A DNA stretch of 20,097 nt from positions 1-20,097 of the IMG/VR virus record IMGVR_UViG_3300023174_000769, one strand, 5' to 3'. A program made the translations under genes and the position numbers. Under the pieces are notes generated by a model. The model was not told the DNA's origin. It saw only the letters and a list, made by a program, of their open reading frames with translations, and ran no database searches. Each line of letters begins with the position of its first letter. Position 1 is the stretch's first letter. Shown here piece after piece: positions 3,215-14,276 of the stretch. Source of the DNA: a virus.

Positions 3215-3589
3215 ATGGCCTATTCAGACAAGGTTGTAGATCACTACGAAAATCCACGCAATGTGGGCAAATTTGAAATCGATGATTCAGTTGGTACGGG
3301 CATGGTGGGAGCGCCCGCTTGCGGTGATGTGATGAAATTACAAATAAAAGTACAAGATGGGATTATTACAGATGCAAGATTCAAAACATACGGATGCGGA
3401 AGTGCAATCGCAAGTTCTAGCCTTGTTACGGAATGGGTCAAAGGTCGAACACTTGAAGAAGCAGGATCCATACGAAATAGCCAAATTGCTGAAGAACTTG
3501 CTCTCCCACCAGTCAAAATCCACTGTTCCATCCTGGCCGAAGACGCCATCAAAGCCGCGGTAGCAGACTATCGTCAAAAGCATGTTTAG
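3215..3589 (+). CDS. iscU: Fe-S cluster assembly scaffold IscU
   Basis: This 124-residue, full-length IscU begins MAYSDKVVDHYENPRNVG, almost the same as bacterial IscU. IscU is the scaffold on which IscS-derived sulfur and iron are built into a [2Fe-2S] cluster. The cluster ligands are present: Cys36 in GAPACGDV with Asp38, Cys61 in TYGCGSA, and His103-Cys104 in KIHCSIL. The LPPVK motif (97-101) by which HscA recognises IscU is intact, so it could work with host IscS and HscA/HscB; none of those genes is visible here. A strong ribosome site (AAGGAG) precedes the ATG. The end overlaps the radical SAM gene by 8 bases. Close match to beta/gammaproteobacterial IscU points to acquisition from a host using ISC. 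Confidence 0.97.
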   Translation: MAYSDKVVDHYENPRNVGKFEIDDSVGTGMVGAPACGDVMKLQIKVQDGIITDARFKTYGCGSAIASSSLVTEWVKGRTLEEAGSIRNSQIAEELALPPVKIHCSILAEDAIKAAVADYRQKHV

Positions 3590-4538
3590 AGTCAATGAAA
3601 TTAGACATATTCATTTAGAATTAAGTTCTTTATGTAATGCTAGATGCCCGTTGTGCCCAAGAAATTTTTACGGTTACCCATACAATCTTGGATACACAGA
3701 AACTAATCTATCGCTGGCACGGTTACAAACGCTACTGCCTGGTACATTGGTCAATCAATTAGATGAAGTTATAATCAATGGCAACTACGGTGATTTTGTA
3801 ATGAATCCCGAAAGCGTTGAAATAATCTCATGGTTGAGGTCTATAAATCCAACCATGAAGATACACATCAGCACCAATGGTGGTGCCCGCGACAAGAATT
3901 TTTGGCATCAACTGGCACAATTGAATTTAGAAATCTCCTTCTGTATTGATGGATTAGAAGATACTCATCACATTTATCGTCAAGATACCACATATCAACA
4001 GGTAATCAAGAATGCCAAAATCTACATTGATGCAGGCGGTCGCGCTGTTTGGACAATGACTGAGTTTGAACATAATAAACATCAAGTTAAAGAAGCAACT
4101 CAGCGGTCAAAAGAGTTGAACTTTTTTTCTTTTAACATTCGACCAACCACCAGAAACAAAGGCCCTGTGTACAATCGACAAGGACAAAAGATATTTAAAT
4201 TAAGCAATATAGATTTACAAAAACCCAACACAATAGATGACACATTTGTTGAAAAAAATCACAGACAGAATAATTCAGAGAACTATTTCTCAACTGTGCC
4301 TAAAACTATCACGTGTGAAGCAAAGAAAAATAAATCTGTTTATATCACATCCGAAGGAATAGTTAAGCCTTGTTGTTACCTAGGATTAGATAAAACTAAT
4401 TCAAAGTTTTATTCGGGCTTAGAAGAATTAGATCATTTTCAGTCAATTGAAAATTCTGTCGCTCTGTTTACAAAAATTGAAAAGACCTTTGACAATGGTC
4501 AGCAACTACGTGCTTGTCAATTTTTTTGCAGTATATGA
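3582..4538 (+). CDS. Radical SAM protein with C-terminal twitch/SPASM-type cysteines
   Basis: This is a 318-residue protein. The radical SAM signature CNARCPLC gives Cys18, Cys22 and Cys25 for the catalytic [4Fe-4S] cluster that cleaves S-adenosylmethionine. NGNYGDF (about 66-72) stands where the SAM-binding GGEP-like motif is expected, and HISTNGG follows as the next strand. Cys245, Cys264/Cys265, Cys312 and Cys316 at the C-terminus form a set suited to an auxiliary cluster as in twitch or SPASM proteins. The substrate is unknown; relatives modify peptides, cofactors or RNA, and no precursor peptide gene is obvious nearby. The start lies inside iscU (8-base overlap) and the stop overlaps iscA (ATGA). 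It is thus flanked on both sides by Fe-S assembly genes, the likely source of its clusters. Confidence 0.9.
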   Translation: MFRVNEIRHIHLELSSLCNARCPLCPRNFYGYPYNLGYTETNLSLARLQTLLPGTLVNQLDEVIINGNYGDFVMNPESVEIISWLRSINPTMKIHISTNGGARDKNFWHQLAQLNLEISFCIDGLEDTHHIYRQDTTYQQVIKNAKIYIDAGGRAVWTMTEFEHNKHQVKEATQRSKELNFFSFNIRPTTRNKGPVYNRQGQKIFKLSNIDLQKPNTIDDTFVEKNHRQNNSENYFSTVPKTITCEAKKNKSVYITSEGIVKPCCYLGLDKTNSKFYSGLEELDHFQSIENSVALFTKIEKTFDNGQQLRACQFFCSI

Positions 4539-4858
4539 TCTCGTTTACTGACACCGCTCGAAACAAAATACAAAAGTTAGTCACAGCCAAAGGCTATGCT
4601 GGTATTCGTTTGGGTGTAAAGACCACAGGTTGCTCGGGTCTGGCTTATGTGTTAGAATACGTGAAAGAATACACACACGAACAGTATGTTATCAATTATG
4701 CACAACCGGACTTTGTTGTGCTAGTGAATCAAAAAGACAATGTGTATCTACAAAACATGACAGTGGACTATGTGCGCCAAGGCCTCAACGAAGGTTTTGA
4801 ATTTCGAAATCCCAATGAACGCGACCGTTGCGGTTGCGGAGAAAGTTTTAGAGTTTAA
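4535..4858 (+). CDS. iscA: A-type Fe-S carrier IscA
   Basis: This 107-residue protein starts at the ATG at 4535, which overlaps the upstream TGA. A longer TTG reading from 4514 is less likely. It matches IscA across its length: GIRLGVKTTGCSGLAYVLEY, then LNEGFEFRNPN and the C-terminal CGCGESF. The three conserved cysteines that hold the cluster or iron are Cys33, Cys99 and Cys101. A-type carriers receive clusters from IscU and deliver them to target enzymes. Neighbours are the radical SAM gene upstream and the exonuclease downstream, which begins inside its stop (TAATG). ErpA or SufA are possible alternative names, but the GYAGIRLGV start and NPNERDRCGCG end fit IscA best, and pairing with IscU supports it. 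Confidence 0.93.
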   Translation: MISFTDTARNKIQKLVTAKGYAGIRLGVKTTGCSGLAYVLEYVKEYTHEQYVINYAQPDFVVLVNQKDNVYLQNMTVDYVRQGLNEGFEFRNPNERDRCGCGESFRV

Positions 4859-5568
4859 TGATTGTTCAAAGATATAATTATACCCCGTTGAATAGAGAGT
4901 CGATGGATGGTAAGAGACATTATTGTTTACCTGACGGCAGTAAAGTTCCTAGTGTTACTACAATACTGGATAAAACAAAACCACAAGAAAAAAGAGAAGC
5001 ATTGGCCAATTGGCGGCGAGCAGTTGGCGAACAAAAAGCTCAGCAAATTACCACAGAAGCTGCAAATCGTGGCACACGTATGCATGCCTATTTGGAGCAC
5101 TATGTCATGAGTGCAGACATGAAACCTTTGCCCACTAATACATTTGCCCACCCCAGTTGGTTCATGGCTGCAGAAGTTATTCTTAAAGGGTTATCCAATG
5201 TCGACGAATTTTGGGGAAGTGAAGTGCCAGTTTACTACAGTGGATTATATGCAGGCACTACAGATTGCATTGGAGTCTGGAAAGGACGTCCTGCCATCAT
5301 GGACTTTAAACAAAGTAACAAACCCAAAAAGCGTGAATGGATTGAAGATTACTTTCTACAATTAGCCGCTTATGCCGCTGCTCATAACGAAATGCATGGC
5401 ACCGATATACGTGATGGTGTAATTTTAATGGCCGTACAGCCCAAATTACTTGAAGATAACACATATTCGACGCCGGAATACTTGGAATTTGAAGTCTCTG
5501 GAGAAGAGTTTGATCGTTGGCATAATGAATGGATGAAACGAGTGGAACTCTATTATCTAAGTAACTAA
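4858..5568 (+). CDS. PD-(D/E)XK exonuclease, RecB/MGME1-like
   Basis: This 236-residue protein has a RecB-type nuclease core: RGTRMHAYLEH (about 72-82), SEVPVY (metal-ligand Glu), TTDCIGVWKGRPAIMDFKQS (catalytic Asp, then D-F-K) and DYFLQLAAYAAAHN (Q-x3-Y). The order and spacing match the PD-(D/E)XK family that includes Cas4, RecB and the mitochondrial exonuclease MGME1. Similar single-domain nucleases are found in many aquatic T4-like phages and probably process DNA ends during recombination or packaging, or help degrade host DNA. Only two cysteines are present, so unlike Cas4 and AddB it should not carry an Fe-S cluster despite its place in the isc operon. It starts 1 base inside the iscA stop. 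Its last codons overlap a CTAAATAC late box. Confidence 0.88.
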   Translation: MIVQRYNYTPLNRESMDGKRHYCLPDGSKVPSVTTILDKTKPQEKREALANWRRAVGEQKAQQITTEAANRGTRMHAYLEHYVMSADMKPLPTNTFAHPSWFMAAEVILKGLSNVDEFWGSEVPVYYSGLYAGTTDCIGVWKGRPAIMDFKQSNKPKKREWIEDYFLQLAAYAAAHNEMHGTDIRDGVILMAVQPKLLEDNTYSTPEYLEFEVSGEEFDRWHNEWMKRVELYYLSN

Positions 5569-5591: not shown

Positions 5592-6128
5592 ATGGCGATT
5601 GTACAAATCTCTCAAATTAAACATCGTAGAGGCACTAACGAAAACTTGCCTCAATTGGGCAGCGCAGAATTGGGGTGGAGTGTTGATACCCAACAGTTAT
5701 ACATCGGCAACGGCACCTTGGCAGAAGGCGCACCCGACATTGGTAACACAGAAATTTTGACAGAACTCAGTGCTGCCCGCGGCGACATTCCTGGTCTTCC
5801 TGCTACATATACTCAAACCATAACAGCCAATACTACAGCAAATATTGCGTCTGCTGCATTTGATAGTTCATATCCGGGTACAACAATTAACTATGTTGTA
5901 CAACGCGGCACCAACGTTAGAACTGGTGCAATTAGAATTAGTCAATATTTGAGTAACATGAGTTATGATGAAGAATATAACGAAACAGCAGATATTGCAT
6001 TTACTTTGACAGTGACACAAGTCGGCAATGCATATGCACAACTAAGTGCTACTGCCGCTAACACAGGTGTTAGCGCAGGCATTAATGCTAATATCAAATA
6101 TAGTTTTGCCAACCTTTCGTTTAGCTAA
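5592..6128 (+). CDS. Fibre or baseplate-type virion protein
   Basis: This 178-residue protein begins MAIVQISQIKHRRGT. The N-terminal segment QIKHRRGTNENLPQLGSAEL, followed by GWSVDTQQLYIGNG, is the pattern of N-terminal domains in many phage fibre and tropism proteins (Mtd N-terminal-like): an HRRGT turn, then GELG-type and DTxxLYIGNG strands that attach a fibre to the baseplate or form a short trimer. The rest is Thr/Ser/Asn/Ala-rich beta sequence ending NIKYSFANLSFS. It is short for a receptor-binding fibre, so it may be a short fibre, an adaptor or a baseplate collar protein. A TAGGA at 5578-5582 is 9 bases from the ATG, and a late-type box precedes it. Confidence 0.8.
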   Translation: MAIVQISQIKHRRGTNENLPQLGSAELGWSVDTQQLYIGNGTLAEGAPDIGNTEILTELSAARGDIPGLPATYTQTITANTTANIASAAFDSSYPGTTINYVVQRGTNVRTGAIRISQYLSNMSYDEEYNETADIAFTLTVTQVGNAYAQLSATAANTGVSAGINANIKYSFANLSFS

Positions 6129-6152
6129 TCAAACAATTTATTTTTTTAACAC

Positions 6153-6599
6153 ATGTGGAATCAACTACCCAGTGAGCGCCTCCGCTCCTGGCATAATTTT
6201 CGAAAAGACTTAGACAAACAGTCATTGGAACAAGCATTACAAGATGTACAACATCTTTGGAGTTACGCACCCTATGTGGCACACTACTTGACCACTGATC
6301 AGTTGGCAGCTTGGCCAAACCCATGGGAATTGATGTACGAAAACTACTATTGCGATCTTGCAAAAGCTCTTGGAATAGTGTATACTTTGTATCTAACTGG
6401 GCACAGGCCCGAAATGGAAATACAAGTGTACAGCGATCCGTCGACCAAGGAACAGTATAATTTAGTCTTTGTTGAACAAGGAAAATATGTTCTTAATTTG
6501 ATCCACGACGAGGTTGTAAATAAAGAACATATCGATAAACACCTAAAATTAATTAAAACATTATCTATTATCGATTTGGGGCTGAACAAAATACAATAA
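6153..6599 (+). CDS. Phage protein of unknown function
   Basis: This 148-residue soluble protein is rich in Trp, Tyr and His at its N-terminus. The central stretch WPNPWELMYENYYCDLAKAL looks like a conserved core and is followed by an alternating hydrophobic half (MEIQVYSD, YNLVFVEQGKYVLNLI). There is no signal peptide or membrane helix. I recall similar small proteins beside structural genes of aquatic myoviruses, but no function is known to me. The 24-base gap before it holds only AT-rich sequence and no clear ribosome site, so the start is less certain. It is followed 14 bases later by nrdA. Confidence 0.65.
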   Translation: MWNQLPSERLRSWHNFRKDLDKQSLEQALQDVQHLWSYAPYVAHYLTTDQLAAWPNPWELMYENYYCDLAKALGIVYTLYLTGHRPEMEIQVYSDPSTKEQYNLVFVEQGKYVLNLIHDEVVNKEHIDKHLKLIKTLSIIDLGLNKIQ

Positions 6600-6613: not shown

Positions 6614-8932
6614 ATGACAGCAATTCAAGTAACAAAAAGAAGCGGTAAAAAAGAACCTTTAACAATTGAAAAGTGGCAAGCACAAATAACAAAAGTATGT
6701 AACGGTACAGCAGATGTAAGTCAGAGTATGATCGAGATCAAAGCTCAACCCCATTTTTATAACGGGATGAGCACCAGGGAGATTGATGAAATCACTCTAA
6801 GGGCTATTGTTGATTTGATTGACGTGGAACATAATCCAGATGTTGGCCATGTGAACTATCAATATGTGGCCGGTAAACAGAGATTAAGCATGTTGCGTAA
6901 AGATGTATACGGAAATTATGAAGTTCCGCACTTATACAGCATTGTAAAGAAAAATGTAGAGATTGGTCTATATACGCCGGAACTACTAACATGGTATTCG
7001 GAAGAAGAATGGAATCGCATGAACGACATGCTGGATCATTCCAAGGATGAACAATACTCTTACGCAGCCGTCGAACAACTGATCGAAAAGTATTTGGTAC
7101 GTAATCGTAGTACGAAAGAAATTTATGAAACTCCGCAAATTAGGTATATGATTGCCGCGGCTACAGTGTTTCATAAAGAAGAACCCAACAGTGCAAGAAT
7201 GCGTTACATCAAGGAATATTACAATGCAGCATCAGACGGACTCTTCACTTTGGCAACGCCCGTTCTTGCAGGTCTTGGCACACCCACTAAGCAGTTTAGT
7301 AGTTGTGTTCTTATTCGCTCGGATGATGATCTGGACAGTATTTTCGCGTCCGGAGAAATGATGGCCAAGTATGCCAGCAAACGTGCTGGTATTGGTTTAG
7401 AAATTGGCCGCTTACGTCCATTGGGCTCACCCATACGTGGCGGCGAAATCATGCACACTGGTATGATACCATTTTTAAAGAAATGGTTTGGAGATTTGAG
7501 ATCATGCAGTCAAGGAGGAATTAGAAATGCTAGTGCAACTGTGTTTTATCCCATATGGCATCATCAGTTCGATGACCTCATTGTGCTCAAGAACAATCAA
7601 GGAACAGAAGAAACCCGTGTCCGACACATGGACTATGGGGTTGTGCTTAGTGCTTTTTTCTGGCGTAGATTTAAAAACAAACAAGATATCACGTTCTTTG
7701 ACCCTAACGAGGTGCCGGATCTATATGAAGCATTCTACCGAGACTCGACACTTTTTGAAGAACTGTATGTGGCTTATGAAAAACGATCTGACCTACGCAA
7801 GAAGACTATTTCCGCGGAAGAAGCGTTCAAGGGAGGCATTCTTAAAGAGCGAACAGACACAGGTCGTATATATCTAGTGTTCATTGACAATGTCATGAAC
7901 CAAGGTCCGTTCGACCCAGAGTACCATACCATTTATCAGAGTAACCTTTGTTGTGAAATACTTTTACCTACTAGGTCTTTTAAGCGTCTCGATGATGCTG
8001 ATGGCCGCATCGCTTTATGCACTCTTGGTTCTATCAACTGGGGAGCCTTCCGTAATCCTGAAGATATGCGCAGGGCTTGTCGCATTCTACATAGAAGCCT
8101 CAATAATATATTGGACTATCAAGATTTCTTATCAATTCAGTCAAAGTTAAGCAATGATGAAATTCGTCCTCTGGGCATTGGCATCACTAACTTGGCCTAC
8201 TGGCACGCCAAGAGAGGTCTCCAGTACGGTGAGAAGGATGCCCTAGCAGAAGTCAAGTCTTGGCAAGAACATCAAAGTTTTTACCTAACTGAAATGTCAG
8301 TTGAGCTGGCAGAAGAACGCGGCAAGTGTTTGGGATCAGATCAAACACGTTACGGCCAAGGCGTATTTCCGTGGGAATTACGTGCTACCGGCGTTAACGA
8401 ACTTGCAGATTTTACTCCTGAGCTTGACTGGGAAACACTGCGTACCAAGATGATCAAGCACGGTGTACGAAATGCCACTAATGGCGCTGTTGCTCCAGTG
8501 GAATCCAGTAGTGTTGTTATCAATTCGACCAATGGTATTGAAATGCCAATGAGTTTGATATCTGTTAAAGAATCAAAAGCAGGATCCTTTATTCAAGTGG
8601 TTCCTGAATATCACAAATTGAAGAACAAGTATCAACTTATGTGGGAACAGAAAGACTGCGAAGGTTATATCAAAACAGCGGCAGTTATTGCTGCTTATAC
8701 TGATCAAAGTATTAGCACTAACACATTCTATAATCCAGCGCACTTTCCTGGACGCAAAGTGCCAACTACCATAATTGCCAAGAACCTAATGCAAGCACAC
8801 ATGTGGGGATTGAAGACGTTCTACTACAGTTTAATTAATAAAAAAGGTAGCAAGTCGGAGGAAGACATTCCAGAACCACTTGAAGAAATCAACTTCGACA
8901 ATGTCGAAGATTGCGAAGCCTGCAAACTTTAA
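6614..8932 (+). CDS. nrdA: Class Ia ribonucleoside-diphosphate reductase, alpha subunit NrdA
   Basis: This 772-residue protein (E. coli NrdA has 761) reduces ribonucleoside diphosphates to deoxy forms. Residues 1-95 form an ATP-cone allosteric domain (IQVTKRSGKKEPLTIEKWQA, STREIDEITLRAIVDLI), so activity control by ATP/dATP may be kept. Active-site residues are all visible: Cys231 (FSSCVLI), Asn444, Cys446 and Glu448 (NLCCEIL), Cys469 (ALCTLGS), and Tyr737-Tyr738 on the radical path (TFYYS). The C-terminal shuttle is CEAC (Cys767, Cys770), which glutaredoxin would reduce. AAAGAGAA at 6598-6605 lies 8 bases before the ATG. The beta subunit NrdB is not adjacent: a desaturase gene lies between them. 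Together with nrdB and the glutaredoxin it forms a phage dNTP supply module. Confidence 0.98.
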   Translation: MTAIQVTKRSGKKEPLTIEKWQAQITKVCNGTADVSQSMIEIKAQPHFYNGMSTREIDEITLRAIVDLIDVEHNPDVGHVNYQYVAGKQRLSMLRKDVYGNYEVPHLYSIVKKNVEIGLYTPELLTWYSEEEWNRMNDMLDHSKDEQYSYAAVEQLIEKYLVRNRSTKEIYETPQIRYMIAAATVFHKEEPNSARMRYIKEYYNAASDGLFTLATPVLAGLGTPTKQFSSCVLIRSDDDLDSIFASGEMMAKYASKRAGIGLEIGRLRPLGSPIRGGEIMHTGMIPFLKKWFGDLRSCSQGGIRNASATVFYPIWHHQFDDLIVLKNNQGTEETRVRHMDYGVVLSAFFWRRFKNKQDITFFDPNEVPDLYEAFYRDSTLFEELYVAYEKRSDLRKKTISAEEAFKGGILKERTDTGRIYLVFIDNVMNQGPFDPEYHTIYQSNLCCEILLPTRSFKRLDDADGRIALCTLGSINWGAFRNPEDMRRACRILHRSLNNILDYQDFLSIQSKLSNDEIRPLGIGITNLAYWHAKRGLQYGEKDALAEVKSWQEHQSFYLTEMSVELAEERGKCLGSDQTRYGQGVFPWELRATGVNELADFTPELDWETLRTKMIKHGVRNATNGAVAPVESSSVVINSTNGIEMPMSLISVKESKAGSFIQVVPEYHKLKNKYQLMWEQKDCEGYIKTAAVIAAYTDQSISTNTFYNPAHFPGRKVPTTIIAKNLMQAHMWGLKTFYYSLINKKGSKSEEDIPEPLEEINFDNVEDCEACKL

Positions 8933-8940
8933 AGGTAATC

Positions 8941-9675
8941 ATGATGCTTGAGTGGTATTGGTATTTTGTTTTTTATCTATTGCTGTTTCATATTAAATGC
9001 ACAGTACACACTATCTATGTGCATAGAACTGTTGGACACGGCCACTTTATAGTATCTAAACCACTTGAATACTTTTTTAGATTCATACTATGGACAGGTA
9101 GTCAGGCTGGTCCTCGATGGGCAGAAACGTATGCTAGTAGACACAGAAAACATCACGTTACCAGTGATTCGGATCAGGATCCACACAGTCCCTACAATAT
9201 GACTTTTCAAGAAATGTGTACCAACTGGAAAGTGGATCCATTGGATGCTGATCGTTATTGTCCAGAAATTAAAACTCCCGATGATTGGATGCAAAAAACC
9301 TTACATGAAAAATATAATAATCTTGGCCCATGGGCCATACACATTTTGTCTTTGATATTGTTCGGCCCAATTGGTTTTATCTTGTCTGTGATAATGAGAT
9401 ATATTACCAAGGACTGGTTGTCTATATTTGTTGGAAATTATATAAATCATAAATTTGGTTTCGACTATGCGGGTCATCGTCATCCAACAGACAAATCCAA
9501 AAATGTGTTTCCTTTGGGTCTGCTATTGGCAGGGGAAGAATTGCACAACAATCATCACAATTATCCCAAAGAACCCAATTTTAGAAGATTTTGGTTTGAA
9601 GTTGACTTGGGGTACGTGTATGCTAAAATACTGTCCTACATGGGATTATTAAAAATTAAGAAAGAAATCAAATGA
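8941..9675 (+). CDS. Membrane fatty acid desaturase (acyl-CoA/acyl-lipid type)
   Basis: This 244-residue protein starts at the ATG at 8941 (a second ATG follows at once); AAAGG at 8931-8935 is its ribosome site. The three histidine boxes of membrane di-iron desaturases are present: HRTVGH (His28-His33), HRKHH (68-72) and HNNHH (202-206), plus GHRH at 178-181. Hydrophobic segments occur at about 5-25, 40-57 and 135-165. The family introduces a double bond into fatty acyl chains, usually at position 9, using O2 and an electron donor. It is shorter than cellular enzymes of about 300 residues, but no motif is missing. It lies between nrdA (8-base gap) and nrdB (ATGA overlap), so it is expressed with the reductase. 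It probably alters host membrane fluidity or lipid supply during infection. Confidence 0.92.
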   Translation: MMLEWYWYFVFYLLLFHIKCTVHTIYVHRTVGHGHFIVSKPLEYFFRFILWTGSQAGPRWAETYASRHRKHHVTSDSDQDPHSPYNMTFQEMCTNWKVDPLDADRYCPEIKTPDDWMQKTLHEKYNNLGPWAIHILSLILFGPIGFILSVIMRYITKDWLSIFVGNYINHKFGFDYAGHRHPTDKSKNVFPLGLLLAGEELHNNHHNYPKEPNFRRFWFEVDLGYVYAKILSYMGLLKIKKEIK

Positions 9676-10772
9676 GTGACGCACAATATAATTTAACAAC
9701 AAAGACAGACTATTTGAATCGTAAAATGTTTCTGGATCCAGCTGGTCCTGTCACTATCCAACGATTTGAAGAAGTCAAATACAAAAAGATTGCAGACTAT
9801 GATGCAACTGCACAGGGATTCTTCTGGCGCCCAGAGGAAGTTAGCTTAACTAAAGACAGCAATGACTTTAAAGAAGCAAGTGAAGCAGTCAAACACATCT
9901 TTACTAGTAACCTATTGCGTCAAACAGCATTGGACAGTTTACAAGGCCGCGGCCCCACACAGGTTTTCTCGCCTGTATGTAGTATTCCAGAACTAGAAGC
10001 ATTGATGTACAACTGGGGATTCTTTGAAACAAACATTCACAGCAAGAGCTACAGCCATATTATTCGTAATATCTACAACGTGCCTAAAGAAGTGTTTAAT
10101 ACCATTCACGACACACAAGAGATCGTGGGCATGGCATCAAGTATTGGAAAGTACTACGATCAACTACACCGGATCAACTGCCATAAAGAAGTAGGTGGCC
10201 AGTATTCTGAAGAAGCACACATTCGAGCCATCTATCTAGCCCTACATGCCAGCTATGCGCTAGAAGCTTTCCGATTTATGGTATCATTTGCTACAAGTCT
10301 GGCAATGGTAGAAAACAAGATCTTTATTGGTAATGGAAACATTATCAGTTTGATTCTACAAGACGAACTACTGCACAAAGGATGGACAGCTTTCTTGATT
10401 AATCAAGTGGTCAAAGAAGACCCACGTTTTGCTCAAGCAGCCAAAGAGTGCGAAGCAGAAGTAATTCAAATTTACAAAGACGTTATTGCTGAGGAAAAAG
10501 CGTGGGCGGACTATTTGTTCCAAAAGGGTCCTGTGATTGGATTGAACGCTAATATTTTGAAAGATTTTGTGGATTACACCGCAGTGGGTGCTCTTAAAGA
10601 TATTGGCATTAAGTATTGGACTGCATCGCCCAAGACCACACCCATTCCATGGTTCAACAAGCACAGTGATACTAGTAAGAAACAAACTGCCCTACAAGAA
10701 AGCGAAAGCACAAATTATGTTATTGGTGTAATGAATGAAATGCTAGACTACGATGCGTTACCTCAGATTTAA
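9672..10772 (+). CDS. nrdB: Class Ia ribonucleoside-diphosphate reductase, beta subunit NrdB
   Basis: This 366-residue protein carries the di-iron centre and tyrosyl radical for NrdA. Ligands can be placed against E. coli NrdB: Asp88 (ALDSLQGR), Glu119, His123, Glu198 (LEAFRF), Glu232 and His235 (DELLH). The radical tyrosine is Tyr127 (SKSYSH), and FFWRPEEV holds the Trp of the radical path. The C-terminal tail YVIGVMNEMLDYDALPQI is the type that docks NrdB on NrdA. One oddity: the first Glu and His ligands are in ETNIH, one residue further apart than the ETIH of E. coli. The start overlaps the desaturase stop (ATGA). Glutaredoxin follows after 65 bases. Confidence 0.97.
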   Translation: MSDAQYNLTTKTDYLNRKMFLDPAGPVTIQRFEEVKYKKIADYDATAQGFFWRPEEVSLTKDSNDFKEASEAVKHIFTSNLLRQTALDSLQGRGPTQVFSPVCSIPELEALMYNWGFFETNIHSKSYSHIIRNIYNVPKEVFNTIHDTQEIVGMASSIGKYYDQLHRINCHKEVGGQYSEEAHIRAIYLALHASYALEAFRFMVSFATSLAMVENKIFIGNGNIISLILQDELLHKGWTAFLINQVVKEDPRFAQAAKECEAEVIQIYKDVIAEEKAWADYLFQKGPVIGLNANILKDFVDYTAVGALKDIGIKYWTASPKTTPIPWFNKHSDTSKKQTALQESESTNYVIGVMNEMLDYDALPQI

Positions 10773-10837: not shown

Positions 10838-11089
10838 ATGTTAACAGTGTATAGTAAAGACAACTGCCCGTTTTGTGTACAGGCAAAAAACTTATTAAAA
10901 CTCAAAGGATTTGAGTTTGAAGAAATTAATATTTCACAACAACCAGAAGCTCGAGAGTTTATCATGAGCGAAGGACACAGAACAGTGCCACAAATTTACC
11001 AGGACGGTAAATTGTTTGTGGAAGGCGGATTCCAAGGTCTATCAAAACTAACTGAAGATCAACTAAAGGAAAAACTAAATGCTATTTGA
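10838..11089 (+). CDS. Glutaredoxin (dithiol)
   Basis: This 83-residue protein has the thioredoxin fold of short glutaredoxins: beta strand MLTVYSK, active site CPFC (Cys10, Cys13), cis-proline motif TVPQIY (Pro51) and the GG turn at 63-64. Dithiol glutaredoxins pass electrons from glutathione to ribonucleotide reductase. The position right after nrdB and the CEAC tail of NrdA make that the likely role. Because the same phage has iscU and iscA, a part in Fe-S transfer is possible but less likely for a CPFC type than for a monothiol CGFS type. The stop overlaps the next start by 11 bases. Confidence 0.95.
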   Translation: MLTVYSKDNCPFCVQAKNLLKLKGFEFEEINISQQPEAREFIMSEGHRTVPQIYQDGKLFVEGGFQGLSKLTEDQLKEKLNAI

Positions 11090-11387
11090 TACCAGCTATA
11101 AATCAAATGAAATTGTTTGCTTTAAATTAGTGAACGGCGACGAAATTGTTGCAAAAATTGTAGAACAAACTGCAACTGGCTGGAAAATTAATAAGCCATG
11201 TACAGTGGTTCCCAGTCATCAGGGGTTGGGGTTAGTGCAGACTCTGTTTTCGGCGGATATAAATAAAAATGTAGAGTTAAAATCAGAACATGTAATGATG
11301 CATTCTGTCACTCTGAAAGCATTAGAGGATCATTATATCACAACCACAACAGGTATTTCTGTGGGTAACGGTTCCATTATTACATAA
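11079..11387 (+). CDS. Small phage protein, possibly Sm-like barrel
   Basis: This is a 102-residue protein. The N-terminal segment IVCFKLVNGDEIVAKIVEQT, then GWKINKPCTVV, has the strand-turn-strand pattern and NGDEI turn of small Sm-like or beta-barrel proteins found in aquatic myoviruses. The C-terminal half contains EHVMMHSVTLKALEDHYITT and ends in a Gly/Ser/Thr tail. Function is unknown to me. It starts within the glutaredoxin gene, so it is translated from the same message. A perfect T4-type late box (TATAAATA) is embedded in its coding sequence at 11258-11265, probably for the genes downstream. Confidence 0.7.
   Translation: MLFDTSYKSNEIVCFKLVNGDEIVAKIVEQTATGWKINKPCTVVPSHQGLGLVQTLFSADINKNVELKSEHVMMHSVTLKALEDHYITTTTGISVGNGSIIT
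11258..11265 (+). promoter_or_regulatory. Late promoter box TATAAATA inside a gene
   Basis: This is a perfect match to the T4 late promoter octamer, lying within the coding sequence of 11079-11387 and 139 bases before the PAAR gene start at 11397. Late promoters inside upstream genes are usual in T4. It would let the spike and virion genes 11397-14143 be expressed apart from the early reductase block. Confidence 0.45.
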
Positions 11388-11396
11388 GGAAAACAC

Positions 11397-11687
11397 ATGG
11401 CGGGCGGAGTCACACGAGAAGGCGATCTATTTGGAGCGGGCGGTATAGTGTTTGGAAACAGTGCAAGTAATGTAACTGTGGACGGTCGTCCAGTGGCCTT
11501 GACCGGTAGTTTTTATACGCCTCATATTTTATGTAGTCCAAAAAGTCCTCTACACTGTTTTGGCATAATCAGTAGCAGTGTGAGCAAAGTATTGGTTAAT
11601 GGTGCTCCTCCATTGATACAAGGCAGCAAAGGCCTATGCGGTCATACTGTGTCGGGCGGAAGCAGTTCTGTGGTGATTTTGGGATAA
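11397..11687 (+). CDS. PAAR-type spike tip protein
   Basis: This 96-residue protein is rich in Gly, Ser and Val with repeated short strands: GGIVFGNSASNVTVDGRPVA, HILCSPKSPLHCF, SSVSKVLVNGAPPLIQGSKG and a final Val-rich strand. This is the pattern of PAAR proteins, whose cone caps the central spike of contractile tails (gp5.4 in T4) and whose His/Cys residues hold a metal at the tip; His23-type spacing varies, but the HILC, LHCF and GHT residues could serve. It implies a contractile-tail phage. AAGGA at 11386-11390 lies 6 bases before the ATG. It is followed closely by two virion-type genes that may be baseplate parts. Confidence 0.85.
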   Translation: MAGGVTREGDLFGAGGIVFGNSASNVTVDGRPVALTGSFYTPHILCSPKSPLHCFGIISSSVSKVLVNGAPPLIQGSKGLCGHTVSGGSSSVVILG

Positions 11688-11690
11688 TCA

Positions 11691-12272
11691 ATGAGAGTAC
11701 CATCAACGTATGCCAATGTAAGTCCGGGAATACAAACATCTGGACTAACACCATTACAAATTGCATTAGTCAACACCATGACCGCAGCACCAGTTAATGC
11801 CAGCAATAGCCCTATTCTTATCAATAAAGCATTTATTAATACCATGAACGCTTACGCAGACTCAGGAGTCCTAAGCCCAACACCATATGATTCTCGTACA
11901 AGCACATTAGTTGATATTAATAGTTTGCCGGGTTATAGCTACGTGACAGAAGGTGACGCTGTTTATCTGTATCGTCGTGCCGAAGACTGTGGCGAACAAG
12001 AAAATAGAGTGGAAAAGGTTTTAATAGGCAACCTGACAGTATTGTCTCAGCAGCTGGGTAAAATCTTATACACCTATTATGGTAGTTTAATTAGAGGCGG
12101 CTCAGTATCCAGTGGTGCAGGCGGCCCGTACGGCACAGGCGGGTTACTAAGTCCTTATCCCGGATCCGACGGTAGCACATACAACACAGACACCATCACT
12201 GGCACATTTGACGATTTTCAAGGCAATGCCGTTGCTTCAACTGCACCTGCGCCCCGAGGAGGCATAGCATGA
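11691..12272 (+). CDS. Virion-type protein, probably baseplate-associated
   Basis: This is a 193-residue protein. The N-terminal half is Asn/Thr/Ala-rich with TPLQIALVNTMTAAPVNASN and AFINTMNAYADSG; the middle holds YSYVTEGDAVYLYRRAEDC and an amphipathic helix ENRVEKVLIGNLTVLSQQL; the C-terminus is a Gly/Ser/Thr-rich low-complexity tail (SVSSGAGGPYGTGG). No named family is recognised. It lies 3 bases after the PAAR gene and overlaps the next gene by an ATGA, so it is translated with spike and large virion proteins. A baseplate or tail role is inferred from that context. Confidence 0.75.
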   Translation: MRVPSTYANVSPGIQTSGLTPLQIALVNTMTAAPVNASNSPILINKAFINTMNAYADSGVLSPTPYDSRTSTLVDINSLPGYSYVTEGDAVYLYRRAEDCGEQENRVEKVLIGNLTVLSQQLGKILYTYYGSLIRGGSVSSGAGGPYGTGGLLSPYPGSDGSTYNTDTITGTFDDFQGNAVASTAPAPRGGIA

Positions 12273-14143
12273 GTGATAATGTAATCGATGCTCGTTATGT
12301 TGGCGGAGCGAAAGTAAATACTTACATTTCAGTGCCCACCGGTCAAGTCGACGCAGAAGGTGCATCAGGCACCATTACCATTTACTTGCCTCAGAATTTT
12401 GATGTACCTAGTCAAGCAGGCGTGTACTCGGGAAGTCTGAGTAGTTTAGGTAACATGGTAGCCATGCAGTTAAACACTGAGGGCTATTTGTTTTATGATG
12501 CTATTTCCGGGGAGCTCGCAGACCCAACTAAAACAAATTTTGGATTCTCGTACAAACAAAATATCGACATCCAAGTAAAACCATACCTGTTGGGGTATTT
12601 TAGACAATATTGGAAAAATCCCGCGGGCAGTACATTTGGAGCAGATAGTCCCATACCCGCACTTACAGGCGTGATGCCTGCAACCAGTGAGTTTGTTGAC
12701 GTTCAAGGGAATTTTTTATTCTATGTGGACCAACAAATGTGTCGTTTGACAGGTGGTGGTGGGGGATTCAACTTTGATTATTTCTACAGTGCATTTAGTC
12801 AGTTGCTAGGCTGGGTAGACACCAGTAACAAATATATACTAGCACTAAAACAAATAGAACAAAGAAATTTAGAATATTACGGATTTAAAAATTATAATCA
12901 ATATGTCACACAGGGATTGACCAAGTATCAAACTGGTCAGTCATTGAGGAAATGTTTAAGTAACATAGGTAAGTTAACACAGACCATCGGCCAAGGCCAT
13001 TTCGGTACACCTGGCGCCGTTGCCAAGTCATTGATTGATAACAATTTGGGATATATCGGCGACTTGAGTCAAAAGCTGTATTTGTCCGGAGTTGTGTATG
13101 ACGATATCTACAATCCAGACTACAAAATATATATCACTAACATTTTACAGTCTATTACTGATCCCGCTGATTTAGAAGTCATACAAGACACGTTGGAAAG
13201 TAAATGTGTAATCTTGAGAAGTCTGATGGATTACACTTCGTTAGAAGCAGCAAGCGGATTACAGAATGATAGTGAATTTGCAAACCTTGAAGAAGTGGGC
13301 AAAGATTTATATTTGAAGTTTCCTAATGCAGAATTTGTTGATGGTAACAGCCTTGTGCGCTTGATCAATGACATTGAAGGAATTTCCGGAAGCTCGGTGG
13401 AGAACGTGGCTGGCACAGACACATTGCTGTCCCCCGGTATCATCGAATCCTTTAAAAACTTTTTACCATTGGCGCAAGGGGACGACCCTATTACCGTAAT
13501 GAATGTCATTGGTACTCCGTCGGGCTATCTAAACGATTACATGCAAAAAGTAGTCCAAGGAATAGACGAGTTAGCCAAAACATCTTACGGTCAGCAAATT
13601 GCCAATGCCCTCATGGAGATCAGTAGAACAGGTGCAGGTATTGCGTTAAACTCTGCCGAACAACGTGCATTTGAACGTTATGTGCCTGTACCTCCACCCG
13701 TATACTCTTCGGACGAATCTGGGACATCGTTGGTATCCGCGGGCGGTCCAGGCTATTGGGTGGTACAATGCAACCAAAAAAAGCAAGCCTACTATGACTT
13801 GTTAAACACAGTAGTCGCAGACAAGAGTGGAAACATTCCTGCAATCATTGAAAAAATTAACAACAATTACCTCGAAGCCTGCAGACTGCTACAAACCGAA
13901 ATTAAAAATTATGCCAAAGCAAACATTAGGGTTGAACCATATGCGTTCAACGGACAAATTTTTAGCTTCGTGGAAAACTTATCGGGACTAGCAGTGGACT
14001 CCGGAAACATCGGCACAGCCTACATGTTGTACAACATGGCTCAAGATAATGACGCTGGCAACTTGTTAAAAACCGTAATTGTCCAAGCAAGAAACGATCA
14101 GAGTCTCGTGGATGCCGGAGTCAAATTAAACGGCCCAGTTTGA
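12269..14143 (+). CDS. Large virion-type protein of unknown function
   Basis: This 624-residue protein is the largest complete unrecognised gene here. Residues about 1-150 are beta-rich (VNTYISVPTGQVDAEG, SGTITIYLPQNFDVPS), a Gly run (TGGGGGF, near 165) marks a linker, and residues about 170-620 are mostly helical with NLEYYGFKNYNQYV and a GTPSGYLNDYMQKVV region. Length and layout suggest a baseplate, wedge or ejected protein. No lysozyme-type catalytic signature is visible. The ribosome site GAGGAGG (12256-12262) before the ATG is the best in the window, and the start overlaps the upstream stop (ATGA). The unit 11397-14143 ends just before a promoter region. Confidence 0.8.
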   Translation: MSDNVIDARYVGGAKVNTYISVPTGQVDAEGASGTITIYLPQNFDVPSQAGVYSGSLSSLGNMVAMQLNTEGYLFYDAISGELADPTKTNFGFSYKQNIDIQVKPYLLGYFRQYWKNPAGSTFGADSPIPALTGVMPATSEFVDVQGNFLFYVDQQMCRLTGGGGGFNFDYFYSAFSQLLGWVDTSNKYILALKQIEQRNLEYYGFKNYNQYVTQGLTKYQTGQSLRKCLSNIGKLTQTIGQGHFGTPGAVAKSLIDNNLGYIGDLSQKLYLSGVVYDDIYNPDYKIYITNILQSITDPADLEVIQDTLESKCVILRSLMDYTSLEAASGLQNDSEFANLEEVGKDLYLKFPNAEFVDGNSLVRLINDIEGISGSSVENVAGTDTLLSPGIIESFKNFLPLAQGDDPITVMNVIGTPSGYLNDYMQKVVQGIDELAKTSYGQQIANALMEISRTGAGIALNSAEQRAFERYVPVPPPVYSSDESGTSLVSAGGPGYWVVQCNQKKQAYYDLLNTVVADKSGNIPAIIEKINNNYLEACRLLQTEIKNYAKANIRVEPYAFNGQIFSFVENLSGLAVDSGNIGTAYMLYNMAQDNDAGNLLKTVIVQARNDQSLVDAGVKLNGPV

Positions 14144-14161
14144 GTAAACTGCTCGTATTAC

Positions 14162-14190
14162 TTGATTTTTTATCTAAATTCTTGTATAAT
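14162..14190 (+). promoter_or_regulatory. Sigma70-like promoter before the cell wall hydrolase
   Basis: TTGATT (14162-14167) and TATAAT (14185-14190) are separated by exactly 17 bases. The remaining leader to 14276 contains ATTAGGTA twice (14201-14208 and 14234-14241, 33 bases apart) and a small hairpin TAAAGT/ACTTTA (14207-14222). The ribosome site AAGGAG (14264-14269) is 7 bases from the ATG at 14277. The 133-base gap 14144-14276 holds no open reading frame. Confidence 0.65.
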
Positions 14191-14276
14191 ACACTACTTT
14201 ATTAGGTAAAGTAGGCACTTTATACTGATTTTCATTAGGTATATAAACTTACACTCTTGAAGAAAGGAGAAGATAT

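Follow-up and report, generated by a model that had tools for sequence, protein, structure and literature searches.

The ribonucleotide reductase locus of the window

The window, i.e., the whole stretch of DNA analyzed, is a virus record of 20,097 bases with virion and lysis genes (a PHROG structural protein, a PAAR-like protein and an endolysin). Its + strand contains, in this order, the genes of the large and small subunits of a ribonucleotide reductase (RNR), nrdA and nrdB, separated by a 244-aa open reading frame (ORF) and followed by a glutaredoxin gene (Table 1). This ORF, which codes for a putative fatty-acid desaturase, is the only one in the nrdA/nrdB gap. The RNR is of class Ia, as both NrdA and NrdB are present and NrdB conserves the radical tyrosine and the iron ligands, with D88, E119, H123, Y127, E198, E232 and H235 being invariant in the NrdB alignment (A7). 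E119 and H123 are separated by one residue more than their E. coli counterparts: the iron-ligand helix reads E-T-N-I-H at residues 119–123, versus E-T-I-H (EXXH) in E. coli, an insertion common to the clade and to the cultured phages X1 and Moby.

Table 1. Coordinates of the features of the RNR locus in the window
Feature	Position	Strand	Evidence
nrdA, class Ia RNR large subunit, 772 aa	6614..8932	+	Pfam PF02867 (7e-108)/PF00317/PF03477, PHROG 84; ATP cone present
nrdA/desaturase spacer, 8 nt	8932..8940	+	AAAGG Shine-Dalgarno-like, overlapping the nrdA stop; sequence
Putative membrane fatty-acid desaturase, short DesA-type, 244 aa	8941..9675	+	PF00487 2.5e-10; ATG start, AAAGG 5′ of ATG
Histidine box 1, HRTVGH, residues 28–33 (H28-RTVG-H33)	9022..9039	+	Alignment
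Histidine box 2, HRKHH, residues 68–72	9142..9156	+	Alignment
N166xxxH170, counterpart of the NSAAH metal-site motif in SCD1	9436..9450	+	Alignment to 4ymk
Histidine box 3, HNNHH, residues 202–206	9544..9558	+	Alignment
ATGA overlap, desaturase stop/nrdB start, 4 nt	9672..9675	+	Sequence; present in L002 and L003 too
nrdB, class Ia RNR small subunit, 366 aa	9672..10772	+	PF00268 3.7e-41; aligns to E. coli NrdB along its length
Glutaredoxin, downstream member of the RNR cluster	10838..11089	+	PF00462 3.6e-20

An earlier note on this DNA, made from the sequence alone, had placed the desaturase within the RNR operon by virtue of an ATGA overlap with nrdB. Both points were confirmed by the gene order and by the overlap itself, which probably couples the translation of the desaturase to that of nrdB. 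In the window and in two related loci, L002 (73% identical) and L003 (70%, partial), the desaturase frame ends on the TGA that is shared with the nrdB ATG. Since independent contigs agree on the order and the overlap, an assembly artefact was rejected. It should be said that 61 of 70 loci have ATGA where nrdB begins anyway, as NrdB in this clade usually opens with ATG-AG(C/T), so the informative feature is that the desaturase frame stops precisely at that TGA. Scans for promoters and late promoters gave no more matches than shuffled sequences, and expression as an operon is therefore deduced from the layout.

Other features were observed around the locus. At 3215–4858 of the window, three overlapping head-to-tail genes code for IscU, a radical SAM protein (with weak matches to models of tungsten-cofactor maturase and MoaA) and IscA; L002 lacks the middle one, and there IscU runs directly into IscA. 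L002 also has two additional genes (279 and 353 aa, at 7841–9738) in the interval from nrdB to glutaredoxin, which in the window is a gap of 65 nt. A blastn search of positions 10838–14200 against phages gave no match.

A short DesA-like protein with intact active-site ligands

The 244-aa ORF passes the curated cut-off of PF00487, FA_desaturase (41 bits versus 29.7), and this was the sole domain found; with no HNH or GIY-YIG domain, its identity as a free-standing homing endonuclease of the mobE kind was rejected. The three histidine boxes that the earlier note had recognized are aligned and conserved, and a search for relatives lacking them, which would have spoken against a desaturase, found the boxes kept. 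Among 44 aligned phage and bacterial homologues the iron ligands are invariant or nearly so, H170 being invariant and N166 present in at least 90%. An alternative reading of box 1 as HTIYVH was discarded in favor of H28-RTVG-H33, because its first histidine, H23, is replaced by F or Y in relatives.

The AlphaFold model, built with the 44 aligned rows, had a pLDDT of 94.3 and a pTM of 0.90, and its fold resembles that of stearoyl-CoA desaturase (SCD). The best solved matches were SCD1/SCD, with a Foldseek value of 5e-6 and VIA Z scores of 17.4–17.8 across 229–233 residues (for SCD1 4ymk, Z 17.8, 229 residues, 3.3 Å). The only other plausible match among those listed, the alkane hydroxylase AlkB, was far weaker (Z about 6). 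A sequence-profile search likewise recovered SCD1 at 1.5e-20. The phage protein shares with SCD1 (4ymk, 6wf2, 4zyo) the fold, the nine histidine ligands and the NxxxH motif, although it is shorter and only 15–18% identical by structural alignment. The gene is under purifying selection, with a dN/dS of about 0.12 (dS 0.19, unsaturated; dN 0.022) for the desaturases of L089 and L093, the pair on which this figure rests, as dS is near saturation in the remaining ones. Taken together, motifs and model support that the protein would be a real membrane fatty-acid desaturase of the SCD/DesA type, with its predicted active-site ligands intact.

Concerning its kinship, the nearest NCBIfam family is NF049918, DesA (7.9e-45, residues 3–241 aligned). 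The phage protein scores 153.6 bits against a family cut-off of 400 and stops at residue 244, so the C-terminal region beyond residue ~241 is absent, while bacterial DesA proteins have 391–397 aa. Because of the score under the cut-off and the missing ~145 C-terminal residues, the phage protein is classified, by its sequence, as a short DesA-like branch rather than a DesA member, and for the same reasons its substrate may differ from that of bacterial DesA. The bacterial proteins (NF049918; Burkholderia, Legionella, Pseudomonas) share the box pattern, and in the trees no other bacterial group lies as close to the phage clades; four of them are 29–34% identical to the phage protein, which differs from them also in its location within a phage RNR operon. 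A tblastn search in cultured phages gave nothing at 1e-5, the only match being Pelagibacter phage Mosig (27%), and no close relative was found in 50,697 phage records. A scan of genome contigs yielded one distant planctomycete desaturase only, and the plasmid relatives were at most 35% identical. No electron donor gene was identified beside the desaturase.

The nrdA/nrdB gap as a cargo slot

The earlier note had proposed comparing the nrd loci of related phages. The insertion recurs not only in L002 and L003 but also in a second lineage (L088–L096 and L099, with contigs up to 364 kb), where a 58% identical desaturase occupies the same gap in the order nrdA, desaturase, methyltransferase-like gene, class II aldolase, 211-aa protein, nrdB. 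All the slot desaturases of this RNR (type 1) form a single clade with 100/99 support. Xanthomonas phage X1 and Stenotrophomonas phage Moby, whose NrdA proteins are respectively 60% and 53% identical to that of the window, are the nearest relatives in culture, and neither has a gene between nrdA and nrdB.

The gap was then considered in 70 loci with both genes, drawn from the 80 closest NrdB relatives (81–87% identical) plus the second lineage. The two genes touch or lie at most 14 nt apart in 19 of the 70, while the gap exceeds 60 nt in 51 and 400 nt in 44, reaching up to 3.2 kb. By comparison, the gap between nrdB and glutaredoxin exceeds 400 nt in 11/80 (Fisher p about 4e-10), a comparison that, like the other slot statistics, is descriptive because the loci and contigs are related and not independent. 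The inserts make up about 30 ORF clusters, some of them short or doubtful and nearly all on the operon strand. The commonest cargo is class II aldolase (23 of 70 scanned ORFs), with Fe/Mn-SOD (7), IscA (3) and IscU (2) also represented; further cargo includes the desaturase, a Tim44-like protein, a 2OG-Fe(II) oxygenase, a class V aminotransferase, a methyltransferase and an SGNH-like protein (by eye), among others, and HNH/NUMOD homing endonucleases in L052 and L062. The nrdA/nrdB gap is thus a general cargo slot which different phages fill with differing genes. Fe/Mn-SOD-like genes were seen within the gap of L018, L022, L030, L035, L047, L051, L073 and L081.

A deeper scan revealed that at least 571 viral loci encode relatives of the desaturase. 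Seventy-two further loci were examined, of which 26 had the desaturase near RNR genes, 28 did not and 18 were unassessable. The nearby RNR was mostly of another type (type 2), with an NrdA of about 604 aa, only 22% identical to type 1, and a small subunit of about 326 aa. The desaturase lies within the nrdA/nrdB gap in six loci (e.g., L194: nrdA, desaturase, thioredoxin, nrdB) and directly 3′ of nrdB in most of the other RNR-near loci of the 26. The reverse scan, with the type-2 small subunit, found nrdA and nrdB together in 69 loci, five of them with a desaturase in between; the gap contains thioredoxin in most, and also aldolase, IscU/IscA or the 211-aa protein. In L210 (1488–2546) and L204, the type-2 nrdB gene is apparently split by an intein-like insert starting AVIEGTEVLSESGWIPIELL.

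The slot desaturases of both RNR types are 36% identical and fall in two distant clades, each with 100/99 support, from which it follows that, as judged from the tree, desaturases entered an nrdA/nrdB gap at least twice, independently. On the same tree, the RNR-adjacent label requires seven changes, at least three of them forced. Aldolase is 79% and IscU 85% identical across the two operon types, so some cargo has either passed from one of these unrelated operons to the other or come from a common pool. A 211–214-aa protein (PHROG 3704) is also found in the nrdA/nrdB gap of each RNR type (L169, 3348–3992; L093, 6511–7146). In spite of the "ferredoxin" label of this PHROG, it is not counted here as an electron donor, as no classical [2Fe-2S] cysteine pattern could be recognized by eye.

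Interpretation of the desaturase and its position

The earlier note had taken the position of the gene as a sign that dNTP synthesis and lipid desaturation are connected, and this is not borne out by the slot, which mostly holds class II aldolase, nor by the location of the other desaturases. The 21 records inspected, most of them long contigs, contain 18 desaturase sites: three at or inside RNR (G003, G024, G025), 13 away from it and two in a 32-kb contig without nrdB. Several genomes have three or four desaturases (G003, G006, G008; one of them with four). In the same records aldolase lies near nrdB in 5/5 sites and IscU within about 4 kb of nrdB in 3/6 genomes, while SOD is near nrdB in 0/3 genomes showing both. 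Since most desaturases in these phages sit elsewhere, position alone is no proof of a functional RNR–lipid link; it is evidence for a cargo habit, not for shared function. The 32-kb contig, L098, without an RNR small subunit, shows tandem DesA-like desaturases (4001–5507 and 5919–6452), with an Fe/Mn-SOD gene on the opposite strand and three radical SAM-like genes adjoining.

In our opinion, the window gene probably codes for a working membrane desaturase, which freshwater T4-like phages would carry as auxiliary cargo that can be exchanged and is co-expressed with the RNR. The protein would be a membrane di-iron enzyme of the SCD/DesA type, adding a cis double bond to host acyl chains, with existing phospholipid or acyl-CoA as its presumed substrate. 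Because the slot is inside the operon and the frames are closely spaced or overlapping, the cargo would need no promoter of its own and would be transcribed and translated along with the RNR. The most likely outcome would be a greater fluidity or a remodelling of the host membrane during replication and release.

The earlier note had also suggested that NrdB and the desaturase share a demand for iron and oxygen, which may be extended to an RNR-linked module (desaturase, SOD, IscU/IscA, 2OG-Fe(II) oxygenase and thioredoxin) whose members would depend on iron, O2 or a [2Fe-2S] donor in common with the NrdB cofactor, or would shield its radical. The recurrence of these families in or beside two unrelated RNR operons is suggestive of this, and an RNR neighborhood was found in 26 of the 54 assessable loci of the DesA type, with the label changes on the tree already mentioned. 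Against it, the top type-1 cargo is an aldolase, accompanied by methyltransferase, SGNH-like, Tim44-like and endonuclease genes, and in long contigs SOD lies away from the RNR, as do 13 of the 18 desaturase sites, against three at the RNR and two in the contig without nrdB. So, an iron/oxygen link between desaturase and RNR is possible, but it seems unlikely that such a module explains the locus, and rather doubtful that a mobile iron/oxygen/redox gene set has been placed repeatedly at unrelated RNR operons to support or share the cofactor resources of NrdB.

The FA_desaturase superfamily is chemically broad, and the protein might act instead as a hydroxylase, a ketolase or on a non-lipid substrate. 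The several divergent copies in these phages and the absence of the C-terminal region of bacterial DesA agree with this, yet the fold is nearer to SCD than to AlkB and HR(x)3H/HRKHH/HNNHH is a desaturase pattern, making another chemistry rather improbable. As for the idea that the slot is just a place of frequent recombination, to which homing endonucleases might have given access, with a desaturase of little benefit as neutral or selfish cargo, endonucleases do occur in it and T4 has mobE in the nrdA/nrdB spacer (PMC2988022, PMC3653736). The intact ligands, the purifying selection and the retention of several desaturases per genome speak against this explanation, which we regard as very unlikely.

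With respect to precedents, Roitman reportedly described fatty acid desaturases of cyanophages in 2018. Two viruses from Arctic brines have five desaturase copies each (PMC7300359) and one Nitrospirota phage from Lake Baikal has a desaturase (PMC7678222). The cyanophage, Arctic and Baikal desaturases are likewise auxiliary genes, with multiple copies per virus in the Arctic case, but unlike the window gene no nrdA/nrdB position is reported for them in the parts of PMC7300359 and PMC7678222 consulted. On the other hand, the mobE homing endonuclease gene of T4 and relatives is a free-standing, promoterless gene with a start/stop overlap in the same spacer, as is the window desaturase, the difference being that the latter is a metabolic enzyme (PMC2988022, PMC3653736). 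In a literature search, with subscription papers mostly outside it, no paper was found that describes this spacer as a slot for metabolic genes or for a desaturase. Phage desaturases and nrdA/nrdB spacer inserts were known before, and what is new is that many uncultured freshwater phages accommodate a changing set of metabolic genes in the spacer, some of this cargo being common to unrelated RNR operons. This raises the testable question of whether the iron/oxygen flavor of part of the cargo serves the RNR, and it offers a simple route to phage auxiliary genes, namely to inspect what lies between nrdA and nrdB.
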